A stretch of 64,000 nt of DNA from Nitrosopumilus sp. K4 (GTDB taxonomy: Archaea; Thermoproteota; Nitrososphaeria; Nitrososphaerales; Nitrosopumilaceae). The notes beneath the pieces are model-generated. The model did no database searches. It was not told the DNA's origin and was given only the letters and a program-made list of their open reading frames with translations. The stretch spans positions 434,001 to 498,000 of the forward strand of contig NZ_CP067007.1 of assembly GCF_018128925.1 (NCBI RefSeq), given 5' to 3'. Within the stretch, counting starts at the first letter, position 1. Each line of letters starts with the position of its first letter. Positions 11,034-19,849 of this stretch are shown here, piece by piece. Both the position numbers and the translations under genes were made by a program.

Positions 11034-12758
11034 ATGGTGTTTGAATTGAAAATAATCCTTGCTTTGATTCCTGTTGGCGAATTCCAATCTTTAACTGAAC
11101 TTTTAATGTTCTCTGAGGCACTACAAACAGCCTTTATTGTGTTAATTGTGGGTATTGTCAGTCTAGTTGCAGTATATCGCAAATTCTCTAGTATGATAAA
11201 AACAAAGAAATTCCATTATAAACGACCACATGCGTCAAAATTTCTTAGAACTGTACTTTTGCCTGTTTTTGCCATAATCTTAATCTCATCTATTAATCTC
11301 TATATTTATTCAACTGGCTTGTTTAATGAATCCGTAAATAATGCAGAAAATCCATCAGAGATATTTTCAAAAATTCTTACTACATTAAACATCATAGTAA
11401 TTGGATATACCATATCTCAAATCATACCAATCATTTTAACAAAAAAAGAAAAATCATCCATGGAACATGATGATTTTCTCATCTGGAAAGAAAAACATGG
11501 ATTTGAAGATGATGAAAAAGACTTCTTTAATGAAATTTATGACTGGATCCCACCAAAAAATTTTCCTAAAGACATGGTGAAAGAAAAATTTGAATCATTG
11601 CTTTCCACTGATGAGGGATTGATAATATTACAACAGTATAGGACATCAAAAGGTATGCCAATAGGTAGCTACAAACCAAAGGTTCCAAAACCTTTTGAAG
11701 AATATAAAAAATCAGAGAGAAAAAAATATGACAATTATTATAATTTGTGTACTAGTGAAAATAATGATTCGGGAATGATTTTAAAACCGGGTGTTTGCCC
11801 ACAGGAAATTTTCCCAATTGATACTTGGAGAGAAGAAAAACGGTTTAATGATTTTGATGAAGTTATTGCTGGAGAAAAGCCACCCGGATATGCAACAAAA
11901 AGACGTGAAGGGTTGCCTAAATCCCTTTATCAAGTAATTCCGATTGTTATATTTGCAGTAATTTTGGTTGGTGTAGTGTCCTGGTGGGGCGTTGATTTGT
12001 TAGTTTTAGGAACTGTAGTTGCAGGTCTTGGGGTAGGTATTGGGTTTGCATTAAAAGAAACAATGGAGAATTTCTTTGCATATGTGATGATCAAAAAAGA
12101 CAAGATCTTCATTGAAGGTGATCGTGTAGAAATAGACGGATACAATGGATACATTCACAAAATTACTTCTAGAGTTACATATGTCAGACATGCGTTAAAT
12201 GAATCAATGGCAATATTCCCAACTCGTCAACTAATCGCCACCAAAGTGATCAATTATTCAAATGGATTGAAATTTGTGCCTGCAACTGTTGAAGTTGGAG
12301 TATCATACCTTAATGATGCAAGACAGGTAACTGCAATTTTACGTAAAGTAGGATACAGAGCAATGCGTGAAATTACTGATGACAAAGAAAATCACCTGGT
12401 AACACAAAAACGATGTCCCTATCTAGAGGACAATAAACCAAGTTGTGGTTGTGATAAAGGAATGGTACAAGACATTGAACAACCAAAGATTCGATTTGAA
12501 GATTTTAACAACTCTTCATTGGATTTTAAAATTTGGGTGTATGTAAGAGACTATCAAACAAAATACAGAGTTCAAAGCGCAATACGTGTAATGATTCAAG
12601 AAGAATTCAAAGAATATGACATACGAATTCCATGGCCAATAAGAACAATTTACAACGGTGATGAAAAACAAGAATCAGACGAAATATCTAAACTAGATGA
12701 TAAGAGACAAAAAGTTCTAGACGAATATGGACTAGATGATATATCGGTAAACTCTTAG
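11034..12758 (+). CDS. MscS-family mechanosensitive channel, extended form (574 aa)
   Basis: Three N-terminal hydrophobic segments (about residues 22-45, 75-98 and 115-135) precede a ~160-residue charged cytosolic insert. Then comes the MscS pore block: VVSWWGVDLLVLGTVVAGLG, a Gly/Ala-rich helix (GVGIGFALKETMENFFAYVM) and the beta domain (GDRVEIDGYNGYIHKI). A C-terminal alpha/beta domain follows, with a cysteine cluster (CPYLEDNKPSCGCDKG). The channel should release osmolytes on hypo-osmotic shock. The long insert and the Cys cluster are unusual additions and could carry a regulatory input. It is downstream of the PEFG gene by 9 bp. Confidence 0.85.
   Translation: MVFELKIILALIPVGEFQSLTELLMFSEALQTAFIVLIVGIVSLVAVYRKFSSMIKTKKFHYKRPHASKFLRTVLLPVFAIILISSINLYIYSTGLFNESVNNAENPSEIFSKILTTLNIIVIGYTISQIIPIILTKKEKSSMEHDDFLIWKEKHGFEDDEKDFFNEIYDWIPPKNFPKDMVKEKFESLLSTDEGLIILQQYRTSKGMPIGSYKPKVPKPFEEYKKSERKKYDNYYNLCTSENNDSGMILKPGVCPQEIFPIDTWREEKRFNDFDEVIAGEKPPGYATKRREGLPKSLYQVIPIVIFAVILVGVVSWWGVDLLVLGTVVAGLGVGIGFALKETMENFFAYVMIKKDKIFIEGDRVEIDGYNGYIHKITSRVTYVRHALNESMAIFPTRQLIATKVINYSNGLKFVPATVEVGVSYLNDARQVTAILRKVGYRAMREITDDKENHLVTQKRCPYLEDNKPSCGCDKGMVQDIEQPKIRFEDFNNSSLDFKIWVYVRDYQTKYRVQSAIRVMIQEEFKEYDIRIPWPIRTIYNGDEKQESDEISKLDDKRQKVLDEYGLDDISVNS
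11041..11076 (+). repeat. 36-bp inverted repeat, left arm (MscS 5' end)
   Basis: TTGAATTGAAAATAATCCTT and the next 16 bases, encoding the first residues of the MscS channel, are found as an exact reverse complement at 13335-13370. Confidence 0.85.
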
Positions 12759-13334: not shown

Positions 13335-13370
13335 CAACAGGAATCAAAGCAAGGATTATTTTCAATTCAA
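13335..13370 (-). repeat. 36-bp inverted repeat, right arm
   Basis: Exact reverse complement of 11041-11076. It lies in non-coding DNA after the zinc microprotein gene. Its minus-strand reading would again encode LELKIILALIPV, the MscS N-terminal residues, followed by unrelated sequence. Confidence 0.85.
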
Positions 13371-13871: not shown

Positions 13872-14825
13872 ATGAATCAATACAATATAGTAACATTACT
13901 TACTGCTTCATTATTGGTACTGACAATTCCTAGTGTCTATGCTCAAAGTATTGATGATTTACCTGAACCTGGAACTACTCCTGACTCATTTGTATATGGA
14001 TTCAAAAAAGCATTTGAAGGGTTAGACTTGGCATTTACATTTAATCAAAACGATAAAGTTGCAAAACATCTGAAATTTGCAGAACTTCGACTAAGTGAAG
14101 CAAATGCAGTAGTTCAAAAAGGAATGCCTGAACTAGTTGGCGATTTAACAAAAGACTATGAAAAACAAGTATCTGATGCAAAGAAAATTGCAGACTCTGC
14201 ATCAAAAGCTGCAGACAAGGCATCTTTAACTGAAGATATAGTGTCTGCATCATCCAAACATGTGGAAGTTCTAACTGATCTCAAAGATACACTTCCAGAA
14301 CAAGCACAATTAAGAATCCAAGTAATAATTGATAATTCTAAAAAAGACATTGGTATTGCAATGAAAGAACTCTCAAACTATGCTGATGCAATGGCAAAGT
14401 CAGAAGAAATGAAAAAAACAGCTGAATATCACAAATCCAACTCTACAGAAACAAGAGAACACGATGCTGAGTACAAAGATGATGCAATGGCAAAGTCAGA
14501 AGAAATGAAAAAAACAGCTGAATATCATAAATCCAACTCTACAGAAACAAGAGAACACGATGCTGAGTACAAAGATGATGCAATGGCAAAGTCAGAAGAA
14601 ATGAAAAAAACAGCTGAATATCACAAATCCAACTCTACAGAAACAAGAGAACACGATGCTGAGTACAAAGATGATGCAATGGCAAAGTCAGAAGAAATGA
14701 AAAAAACAGCTGAATATCACAAATCCAACTCTACAGAAACAAGAGAACACGATGCTGAGTACAAAGATGATGTAATGGCAAAGTCAGAAGAAATGAAAAA
14801 AACAGCTGAAGATCAAACACCCTAA
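13872..14825 (+). CDS. secreted DUF5667 protein with 32-residue tandem repeats (317 aa)
   Basis: A signal peptide (residues 1-24, ending VYAQS) is followed by a helical DUF5667 domain (~30-170) with the typical PEPGTTPDSFVYGFKKAFE entry and long amphipathic helices. Then come four complete and one partial copies of a 32-residue unit (AMAKSEEMKKTAEYHKSNST plus 12 more), highly charged and probably a long coiled coil or stalk. It lacks a PEFG tail. DUF5667 proteins are exported and of unknown function. An extended surface protein is inferred. The DNA copies are almost identical, so repeat number should vary between strains. Confidence 0.75.
   Translation: MNQYNIVTLLTASLLVLTIPSVYAQSIDDLPEPGTTPDSFVYGFKKAFEGLDLAFTFNQNDKVAKHLKFAELRLSEANAVVQKGMPELVGDLTKDYEKQVSDAKKIADSASKAADKASLTEDIVSASSKHVEVLTDLKDTLPEQAQLRIQVIIDNSKKDIGIAMKELSNYADAMAKSEEMKKTAEYHKSNSTETREHDAEYKDDAMAKSEEMKKTAEYHKSNSTETREHDAEYKDDAMAKSEEMKKTAEYHKSNSTETREHDAEYKDDAMAKSEEMKKTAEYHKSNSTETREHDAEYKDDVMAKSEEMKKTAEDQTP
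14391..14808 (+). repeat. 96-bp tandem repeats, 4.35 copies
   Basis: Units begin at 14391, 14487, 14583, 14679 and 14775. The only base changes I see are T for C in one CAC codon of unit 2 and GTA for GCA before unit 5. Such near-identity indicates slippage or unequal recombination. Confidence 0.9.
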
Positions 14826-17528: not shown

Positions 17529-17981
17529 TTATCTTGGAGGTTCTTTTTTAATTCTGTATAGGTTCCTTTTTGAAATAACTATTGTTTTGCCATCTTGTGT
17601 TGAGCCTTCATAATCTATTGCAATCTTTCCAAAATCATCATCAATATCGTCCTTTGCAGATACTGTGAATTTTAATTTCAATACTTCATCAGTGTATAGT
17701 GGTTTTAGAAAACGTGTGTTTCTATTTTCCCATCCTGCGTCTCCATCTGTTCCTATGAATATTATGTGATTTCCATAGATCTGACTTATTCTTGTAAATT
17801 CACCCTCCATTCGTGCTAGTATTGCTCTTCCAGAAACAATTTTTTGTTTGCCTTTTTGCATGTCTTCTAAAAATGCATTTTTGATTCTCGAAAAACTTAG
17901 GTATTCATCTAATTCTTTATCTGATATGCTGCATGTCGAATAAAATGCGTCACCTACTCTTAACTCAGAAAATTTTTTCAT
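17529..17981 (-). CDS. MaoC-like hot-dog domain protein (150 aa)
   Basis: A single hot-dog fold is suggested by FSELRVGDAFYS at the N-terminus. A helix (IVSGRAILARMEGEF) follows, then TRFLKPLYTDEVLKLKFTVS and GKTIVISKRNLYRI strands, as in MaoC-type enoyl-CoA hydratases. The usual catalytic D-x4-H is not clear (DGDAGWENRN lies at that place), so activity is uncertain. It begins 2 bp after the tandem SDR gene and is surely co-transcribed with it. It may hydrate or bind a CoA thioester in the same pathway. Confidence 0.55.
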   Translation of the reverse strand: MKKFSELRVGDAFYSTCSISDKELDEYLSFSRIKNAFLEDMQKGKQKIVSGRAILARMEGEFTRISQIYGNHIIFIGTDGDAGWENRNTRFLKPLYTDEVLKLKFTVSAKDDIDDDFGKIAIDYEGSTQDGKTIVISKRNLYRIKKEPPR

Positions 17982-17983
17982 TC

Positions 17984-19753
17984 TTATCTTAACTCATCAA
18001 CACAAAATGTTACTTGAGCTGACGAGGCTGCGTTTTCAGATACAAGGAAATTAAATGCCTGTGCAATTCTTTCATTACTTGATTCAGTTCCTGAGACTGA
18101 ACCTGGGAATATGGAAAATATTCTGATATTTGATTTTAATACATCGCTTAATTCTTGGTTCACTGTTGTGGTAAATGGTCTTAATGCTCCTCTGAACACC
18201 TCAACTTGTGCCCTTTGTGTTCCTGTTACTTTTCTTCCCGATGGCAAATCCGGACCGATGATCATCATTGCTCCTTGTGTATCTTTGTATAGTCTGGGGT
18301 CTTTTCTTCCTCCTGGGACAAATTGTTCTAGTACTCCTTGAGCTACAGTGGCTGGGGTTGTAATGAATTTTTCAATTAACTCATCCCATTCTGCTCTGGA
18401 TAATTCAGTTAATTTTGGTACTTCGGGAATCTTTCCTGTTACATGAATTACGCCTAAAATCTTTCCCAAGTTCGTATTTGCTGTGTTTAGCCATCTGGAA
18501 ACTTCTTCGGGATTTTTGATGTTTATTATGTGAGAGTGGAATTTTCCACTAATGTATTCCTGTAATTCCTGCGGTGTTGATTCAGAGATAAAACATGCAA
18601 CTTTACCACCGTTTTTTTCTACATGCTGAGCTAGATATTCTACTCTTTCTGCATCTGTCTTGTCAGTTGCATCAACAGTAAATACAACTGCCCGTCCTGT
18701 AAAGTCTGGTTGATGAACTCCTGGAGTCGTGGTTCCGATATGTGGTTTTACTGGATAGAATACTCTGTCTCCTGGAATAACTTTTCCATTTAAAATTTTA
18801 GCAATTTCATCATCACATAGATTCAACACTGATTCTGCCACTTGACTTTGCGCTAAGAATTCTTTATTGGCAATCATGTGTGATGTGTTGGTTTGAACTT
18901 TTTCTGCAATACTTTGAATTTTATTTAATAAATTGGCAAATGTCTCTGTGATTTTTTGGATATCTTTTCCATTTGCTAATTTTTGTGCAGCAGATGCAAT
19001 TCCTTCTTTTACAACATTGTCCTCTTCTCCTAATAATGACAACAATTCTTTGTTTGCAGCATCTACTTCTTCTGGAGTTAATTCTTCAAATCCACTAACC
19101 CTCATAAATTCTGCAGCTGCTTTTGGATATACTGTCTTGTAAATTCTGTCTGAATGAACTGGCCCTGGATTTGTTGCAATAGATATGATTCCTTTATCTG
19201 TTAATTCCCATGACATCAATTCTGCCAATCTGTTTTTTGCACCTTGTGATGCGGTGTATGGGCTTCTAAATCTGTAAGGTCTTTGCTCTAGTGGTCTTTC
19301 TTCTGTAAAAAATGTAGAAATTGTAATAATTTTTCCACCTTCTTTCATTACTCTTAATGCTTGTACTGAACCCCAGAATGTCCCTGTTAAGTGAATTCCT
19401 ACTGTACTTTTAAAATCATCTAAGGGTGCATTTGCAAAACAAGTAACAGGACCTGAAACTCCTGCGTTATTAATTACATAATCGACTGTGACATTGTCAT
19501 TTTTTAACTCATCAAACATTTTGGTCATTGCAGATTCATCAGCAACATCAACTCCTGCAAAAATTCTAATTGATGAATTTACTCCTTGAGGAATTTTTCC
19601 TTCAAGTTCTTTTGCTGCTTCTTCTAATGGTTCCTTTCGTCTTCCAAGGATTATTACACTTGCTCCGTTTTCCACAAATTTTGTAGCAATTGCTTTTCCA
19701 ATACCTGTTCCACTACCTGTTACTAGGGCAACTTTATCTTGGAATTTTAGCAT
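17984..19753 (-). CDS. tandem SDR protein, malonyl-CoA reductase-like (589 aa)
   Basis: The N-terminal SDR (1-~240) has the NAD(P)-binding loop TGSGTGIGKA, NNAGVSG, a long STFFTEERPLEQRPYRFRS insert, active-site Y in SPYTASQGAK and NPGPVHSDRIYK. A second, divergent Rossmann domain (~345-589) follows a helical linker. From memory, this plan and the insert resemble the C-terminal, malonyl-CoA-reducing half of Chloroflexus Mcr, including the late VFRGALRPFTTTV helix. The catalytic lysine at Y+4 is replaced by Gln, with a Lys at Y+7. A role in the 3-hydroxypropionate/4-hydroxybutyrate cycle is a hypothesis. Confidence 0.65.
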   Translation of the reverse strand: MLKFQDKVALVTGSGTGIGKAIATKFVENGASVIILGRRKEPLEEAAKELEGKIPQGVNSSIRIFAGVDVADESAMTKMFDELKNDNVTVDYVINNAGVSGPVTCFANAPLDDFKSTVGIHLTGTFWGSVQALRVMKEGGKIITISTFFTEERPLEQRPYRFRSPYTASQGAKNRLAELMSWELTDKGIISIATNPGPVHSDRIYKTVYPKAAAEFMRVSGFEELTPEEVDAANKELLSLLGEEDNVVKEGIASAAQKLANGKDIQKITETFANLLNKIQSIAEKVQTNTSHMIANKEFLAQSQVAESVLNLCDDEIAKILNGKVIPGDRVFYPVKPHIGTTTPGVHQPDFTGRAVVFTVDATDKTDAERVEYLAQHVEKNGGKVACFISESTPQELQEYISGKFHSHIINIKNPEEVSRWLNTANTNLGKILGVIHVTGKIPEVPKLTELSRAEWDELIEKFITTPATVAQGVLEQFVPGGRKDPRLYKDTQGAMMIIGPDLPSGRKVTGTQRAQVEVFRGALRPFTTTVNQELSDVLKSNIRIFSIFPGSVSGTESSNERIAQAFNFLVSENAASSAQVTFCVDELR

Positions 19754-19849
19754 AGATAAACAGTCAAACCTTTTGTAATATTTAATTGGATTGATCTGGT
19801 TTCGGTAATTCTTGATATCTTTATTTGTGGGTATGATTCATGTTTTTTG

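Follow-up and report, generated by a model that had tools for sequence, protein, structure and literature searches.

A tandem short-chain dehydrogenase as a candidate malonyl-CoA reductase of ammonia-oxidizing archaea

The window analysed here is a stretch of 64,000 nucleotides from Nitrosopumilus sp. K4 (NZ_CP067007.1, positions 434,001 to 498,000). Its source genome is a single contig of 1.65 Mb and carries archaeal amoA. On the minus strand lies a gene for a 589-aa protein with two short-chain dehydrogenase/reductase (SDR) domains, a candidate for the malonyl-CoA reductase (MCR) of the hydroxypropionate/hydroxybutyrate (HP/HB) cycle. A smaller gene follows on the same strand after two bases. 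The two open reading frames (ORFs) and the parts of the larger protein are as follows.

17984..19753, minus strand: tandem SDR protein, 589 aa, candidate MCR (ORF; full-length fold match to MCR halves; 34-member alignment from ammonia-oxidizing archaea, AOA)
19139..19753, minus strand: SDR1, residues 1-205, catalytic Rossmann domain (Pfam adh_short, 9.4e-43, residues 7-202)
18719..19138, minus strand: helical insert between the Rossmann domains, residues 206-345, at the position of the extra domain of the MCR C half, MCR-C (model helices 202-321)
17987..18718, minus strand: SDR2, residues 346-589, degenerate Rossmann domain (model; domain-start sequence; hhalign)
18152..18196, minus strand: FRGALRPFTTTVNQE, residues 520-534, conserved SDR2 helix with invariant R525, Q533 and E534 (alignment), which pairs with FVKTTLHAFTATIGVE of SDR4 in MCR-C
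17529..17981, minus strand: MaoC/NodN-like hot-dog protein, 150 aa (ORF; fold match by structure)

AOA, for which the literature describes the HP/HB cycle, rank with the most abundant autotrophs of oceans and soils, and their CO2-fixation cycle is energetically efficient (PMC8287830, PMC7845616). In N. maritimus SCM1, malonyl-CoA reductase is one of four reactions of the cycle with activity, seen in extracts, and no gene (PMC6038301). By 2020 the enzyme could not be found by homology (PMC6964070), and a 2026 marker table for the second variant of the 3-hydroxypropionate/4-hydroxybutyrate cycle holds no MCR marker (PMC12894919). These three reports agree with a preliminary description of the locus, which had called the thaumarchaeal enzyme poorly assigned. 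A search of the open-licence PMC literature found nothing that joins malonyl-CoA reductase, Thaumarchaeota and short-chain dehydrogenases, although subscription journals may hold a prior identification; a search for proteomics papers gave nothing usable on expression of the tandem SDR.

The two SDR-type domains of the preliminary description are borne out, the first by Pfam and the second by the structural model and by hhalign (E 5e-16 to a generic SDR profile). SDR1 carries a TGSGTGIG motif, R38/R39 of the NADPH type and D69, and these three residues are invariant in all 34 sequences of the family alignment, in which the other 33 are 43-88% identical to the window protein. SDR2 lacks a glycine-rich cofactor motif, as do SDR2 and SDR4 of MCR. 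According to the model and the SDR2 sequence, a catalytic first domain and a non-catalytic second domain are packed as in MCR. NCBIfam returned SDR matches below threshold only, and Pfam returned SDR families and no semialdehyde dehydrogenase family, so that the fold of the Asd-like Sulfolobales MCR is not found here. The AlphaFold model, built from the 34 AOA homologues, has a pLDDT of 89.9 and a pTM of 0.90. Its 24 best Foldseek matches in the PDB are all MCR, at full length (E 8e-29 to 1e-22, TMq ~0.7), mostly with the C halves ahead of the N halves (MCR-N). The next match is the tandem SDR 2et6, with a TMq of 0.55.

The likeness extends to the active site of SDR1, where the following features were located and compared with the MCR of Roseiflexus (RfxMCR).

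19226..19324, minus strand: active-site segment, residues 144-176, with T147, the lid loop FFTEERPLEQR, YXXRXXY, Q170 and K173 (invariant in 34/34)
19256..19276, minus strand: YXXRXXY motif, Y160-R163-Y166 (paired by hhalign with Y743-R746-Y749 of RfxMCR; invariant in 34/34)
19244..19246, minus strand: Gln170 where SDRs have the catalytic Lys (K753 in RfxMCR; invariant Gln in 34/34)
19235..19237, minus strand: Lys173, one helical turn after Gln170 (invariant in 34/34)
19100..19171, minus strand: NPGPVHSDRIYKTVYPKAAAEFMR, residues 195-218, near-invariant block (R203 aligns with the CoA-binding R785 of RfxMCR; the same PGPIxSDRI stretch occurs in MCR-N)

In RfxMCR, the YXXRXXY motif Y743-R746-Y749 holds the malonyl group. 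Four residues, S731, Y749, K753 and R799, are essential, R746, R785 and L795 are important to activity and CoA, and NADP is bound by R616 and D651 (PMC10470521). By hhalign, the AOA equivalents of RfxMCR residues are Y160, R163, Y166, T147, R203, R38 and D69, the last two pairing with R616 and D651, and all seven are invariant across the family. The insert segment that the preliminary description had cited (STFFTEERPLEQRPYRFRS / STFFTEERPLEQRPYRFRSPYTASQGAK) is present in the protein as written. When residues 139-207 were searched against 177,635 PDB sequences, the nine best of 21 matches were MCR, the best MCR reaching 36 bits and the best other protein 15.5. Thr147 and Tyr166 are spaced by 19 in every homologue, versus 18 in MCR-C and 13 in MCR-N. 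Lid residues 150-157 are the sole segment of the model with a pLDDT below 50, which would suit a mobile lid.

Compared with MCR-C, the C-terminal half of the bifunctional enzyme of Chloroflexus, Roseiflexus and Porphyrobacter (8a30, 8j2c, 8hi5, 6k8s), the AOA protein has the same arrangement of catalytic SDR, helical insert and non-catalytic SDR, together with YXXRXXY, an extended lid loop, R203 in the place of R785 and the NADP residues R38 and D69. It differs in being a stand-alone archaeal protein of 589 aa, in having Gln for Lys at YxxxK, and in its shorter, sequence-unrelated insert, with ~19% identity in the structural alignment. Classical SDRs (FabG, glucose dehydrogenase, 4iuy, 6pzm) share the first Rossmann domain, TGxxxGIG, NNAG and the S/T-Y positions. 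Unlike the AOA protein, they are single-domain enzymes with a short loop and an intact YxxxK, and YXXRXXY is absent from all of the 29 ordinary SDRs compared, six of which have the Arg.

In a tree of SDR1 with MCR sequences from Chloroflexota and Erythrobacter contigs, the AOA proteins group with the two MCR halves, apart from 31 ordinary SDRs, with support of 96/87. With the lid loop cut from every sequence, they split from 22 ordinary SDRs at 97/90. According to the trees, SDR1 probably descends from the MCR lineage and not from ordinary SDRs, a result weakened by modest sampling and by the program's warning of long branches meeting. The sequence by itself is ambiguous. PDB phmmer and profile searches ranked MCR first, but this owes something to the summing of both MCR halves over the same stretch of the query, and taken singly, ordinary SDRs do as well in phmmer (6pzm, 70.2 bits). 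The phmmer rank was therefore not taken at face value, and we relied on the structure, segment and tree tests instead. A plasmid search for bacterial full-length relatives found none covering 80% of the query.

The distribution of the gene was counted by hand from a table of 400 genomes of the class. Of the 291 genomes of four families (f1, f2, f3 and f5), 268 contain a full-length match (E <1e-60), including all that are at least 94% complete. Autotrophic relatives do not lack the gene. The other families have none in 109 genomes, the best sequences there, at 6e-22, being ordinary SDRs. Fisher's test on this family distribution gives p ~1e-75 with phylogeny ignored. AmoA is restricted to the same four families (249/291 versus 0/109); it was chosen as the co-occurrence marker because HpaB_N, of the 4-hydroxybutyryl-CoA dehydratase type, occurs in non-AOA as well. 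In a sample of 250 genomes of the phylum, no genome outside the AOA families has the tandem SDR. The gene is a marker of ammonia-oxidizing archaea.

Two further scaffolds are known to make semialdehydes from acyl-CoA, the aldehyde dehydrogenases and the Asd-like enzymes. The source genome, searched one enzyme family at a time, has two aldehyde dehydrogenases. One is probably a pyrroline-5-carboxylate dehydrogenase, because its neighbour is a proline-dehydrogenase-like gene, and the other is of the succinate-semialdehyde type. The latter was rejected as a universal reductase since it is absent from several AOA. No gene of the aldehyde dehydrogenase superfamily occurs in seven AOA genomes, of which three are single-contig and all carry the tandem SDR and AmoA; this restricts the routes to succinic and malonic semialdehyde. 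Semialdhyde_dhC proteins number exactly two in 15 of 15 genomes, autotrophic or not, which is a housekeeping number. In the source genome, one is Asd and the other is of the ArgC/LysY type, its neighbours being genes for an amino-acid kinase and a LysX-like ligase.

These counts bear on the alternative that the Asd homologue reduces malonyl-CoA in AOA and that the tandem SDR has another AOA-specific role. The malonyl-CoA/succinyl-CoA reductase of Sulfolobales (4dpk) carries out, in a cycle of the same kind, the reaction proposed for the AOA protein; it belongs to the Asd-like superfamily and its fold is unrelated to that of the AOA protein. It matches the AOA Asd at 190 bits, and the AOA Asd is further from its non-AOA counterparts (41% identity) than ArgC is (57-59%). 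The Asd gene (G000:C1:1390707-1391222 and surroundings) is 59-88% identical within AOA and 41% identical to two non-AOA relatives. Such divergence might possibly reflect a replacement or an extra function, and it keeps this alternative alive. However, the closest solved relative is the archaeal Asd 1ys4 (310 bits), the single Asd of the genome is needed for amino-acid synthesis, and AOA have no second copy compared with non-AOA relatives. We give this explanation only a slim chance. With no other known scaffold free, the tandem SDR is left, barring a second activity of Asd or a scaffold of a new kind, and it is the best candidate for the unassigned step from malonyl-CoA to malonic semialdehyde in AOA.

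Several observations weigh against this assignment. Being confined to one clade, the gene could have any function particular to that clade, and hhalign detects no resemblance in sequence between the helical insert and the MCR extra domain. In addition, single-domain scores are slightly higher for ordinary SDRs. In the SDR1 profile search, the ordinary SDR 4iuy reached 95.4 bits against 86.8 for MCR-C, and in hhalign, SDR1 matched the generic SDR profile at E 4e-39 versus ~1e-29 for MCR, with SDR2 also favouring the generic profile, though a profile gains in score simply from being more diverse. Such scores, along with the long branches that meet in the trees and the lost catalytic Lys, speak for an ordinary tandem SDR that has some role specific to AOA but not part of the cycle, in which tandem duplication reproduced the common SDR dimer and the likeness to MCR is convergent. 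We consider this improbable: over the full chain, MCR is matched far better than the tandem SDR 2et6, YXXRXXY and the lid insert are shared with MCR at the same place, and the gene co-occurs with AmoA at the family level. The preliminary description had drawn a parallel to Chloroflexus Mcr. That parallel held in the whole-chain structure, the segment search, the tree with and without the loop, the motif and the phyletic pattern; in the Mcr profile comparison, the slight single-domain preference for ordinary SDRs went against it and the full-length structure was in its favour.

The nearest MCR half depends on the lid loop, AOA joining MCR-C at 94/74 with the loop and MCR-N at 61/13 without it. 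MCR-N, a malonic semialdehyde reductase (8hi6, 8aew, 6k8v), shares with the AOA protein the fold (TMt 0.74-0.78), Thr at the Ser/Thr position, the PGPxxSDRI stretch and YXXRXXY. It differs in a lid loop 6 residues shorter than that of AOA and in the Lys that AOA have replaced. An MCR-like SDR of AOA might act on another substrate of the cycle, as a succinyl-CoA reductase only, as a malonic or succinic semialdehyde reductase like MCR-N, or as an acryloyl-CoA reductase. The active-site segment has matches to MCR-N and MCR-C alike, S201-D202-R203-I204 resembles the MCR-N stretch PGPIESDRI, and the loop-free tree, weakly, places AOA with MCR-N. However, the long lid loop (19) follows MCR-C (18) and not MCR-N (13), and acryloyl-CoA has no carboxylate for YXXRXXY to hold. 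Moreover, N. maritimus is already reported to have a malonic semialdehyde reductase (Otte et al. 2015, as cited in PMC7845616). A function on one of these other substrates appears unlikely.

The discrepancy at the catalytic lysine touches the assignment most directly. The preliminary description had noted Gln in place of the YxxxK Lys, with a Lys three residues later, and indeed the protein reads YTASQGAK, with Gln170 and Lys173 invariant in 34/34. The Ser/Thr-Tyr-Lys triad is therefore incomplete: T147 and Y166 are invariant, and the Lys position is an invariant Gln. The K753A variant of RfxMCR is inactive (PMC10470521), so the AOA enzyme must solve the loss of Lys differently or catalyse another reaction. 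Judged from the alignment, this loss is a genuine discrepancy with MCR. Of two further MCR residues for malonyl-CoA, R799 of the extra domain has a possible counterpart, R218, by spacing only, and none was found for R1164 of SDR4. The Y166-x6-K173 spacing fits the Yx6K pattern of the enoyl reductases FabI and InhA; a FabI-like site was not favoured, as hhalign pairs Gln170, not Lys173, with the MCR-C lysine. The protein may or may not be a true member of MCR, given that one defining feature, the Lys, is missing. Its fold, motif, family invariance and phyletic pattern and the lack of other free scaffolds are established here, and that it works like MCR is well supported.

On balance, we think it likely, if by no means assured, that the 589-aa protein is the NADPH-dependent, CoA-releasing MCR of the thaumarchaeal HP/HB cycle and a stand-alone relative of one MCR half. 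The substrate, the cofactor, the direction of the reaction and the way in which Gln170 and Lys173 replace the usual lysine are what we infer. NADPH would bind SDR1. Y160, R163 and Y166 would grip the malonyl carboxylate, and R203, together with residues of the helical insert, would bind the CoA moiety. Hydride would then pass to the thioester carbon and CoA would leave. The malonic semialdehyde would go to the separate malonic semialdehyde reductase of N. maritimus, with SDR2 serving as a non-catalytic scaffold. Succinyl-CoA may also be reduced, as it is by the unrelated Sulfolobales enzyme. A bolder proposal is that, in all AOA, a lysine-free SDR site (Tyr166-Gln170, with Lys173) carries out the CoA-acylating reduction of malonyl-CoA and succinyl-CoA alike and shares its ancestry with one half of the bacterial MCR. 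We hold this to be possible but doubtful; if true, one gene would fill two gaps of the cycle.

The hot-dog gene is probably co-transcribed with the tandem SDR in this genome. Pfam has no family for the 150-aa protein, and the MaoC-like hot-dog assignment is nonetheless borne out by structure search, which gives a MaoC/NodN-like fold (1q6w, 4ffu, PhaJ). The hydratase Asp/His pair (D-x4-H) was not found, and an FSRIKNAF-like sequence stands there in all 13 alignment rows. Of the 23 AOA genomes tested, 14 lack the homologue or keep a remnant of it, and where genomes of the Nitrososphaeraceae type do have it, it is located elsewhere, not beside the tandem SDR. This patchy distribution led us to reject it as a subunit or conserved partner. 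The gene is not conserved and lacks the hydratase pair, and so it is no evidence for the enzyme's function; the earlier suggestion that it supports CoA chemistry is not sustained. In one genome, a 27-aa hot-dog remnant lies directly downstream of the tandem SDR gene (G241:C27:8796-8876), apparently a decaying copy. In two genomes of the Nitrososphaeraceae type, the hot-dog homologues contain stop codons or are split, like pseudogenes.

Upstream of the tandem SDR gene, one further element was read directly from the sequence.

19776..19785, minus strand: possible TATA-like element TTAAATATTA, lying 23-32 bases before the start codon of the 589-aa ORF

A sigma-70 promoter scan, a model unsuited to archaea, stayed at chance level and was discarded. 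Elsewhere in the window, a perfect 36-nt inverted repeat (11041-11076 and 13335-13370, arms 2.26 kb apart) flanks a mechanosensitive-channel-like gene; it has two copies only in the window, with none expected by chance. At 14384-14815, a 96-bp repeat of 4.5 copies with 98% matches lies inside a 317-aa ORF, which has a signal-like start and near-identical 32-aa units.

As a universal, clade-specific and expressible candidate, the tandem SDR makes the MCR assignment directly testable. If the assignment is true, the annotation of a globally important pathway would be completed and a marker gene provided. AOA would then possess an archaeal relative of one half of a fused bacterial enzyme, in which a catalytic residue has changed.
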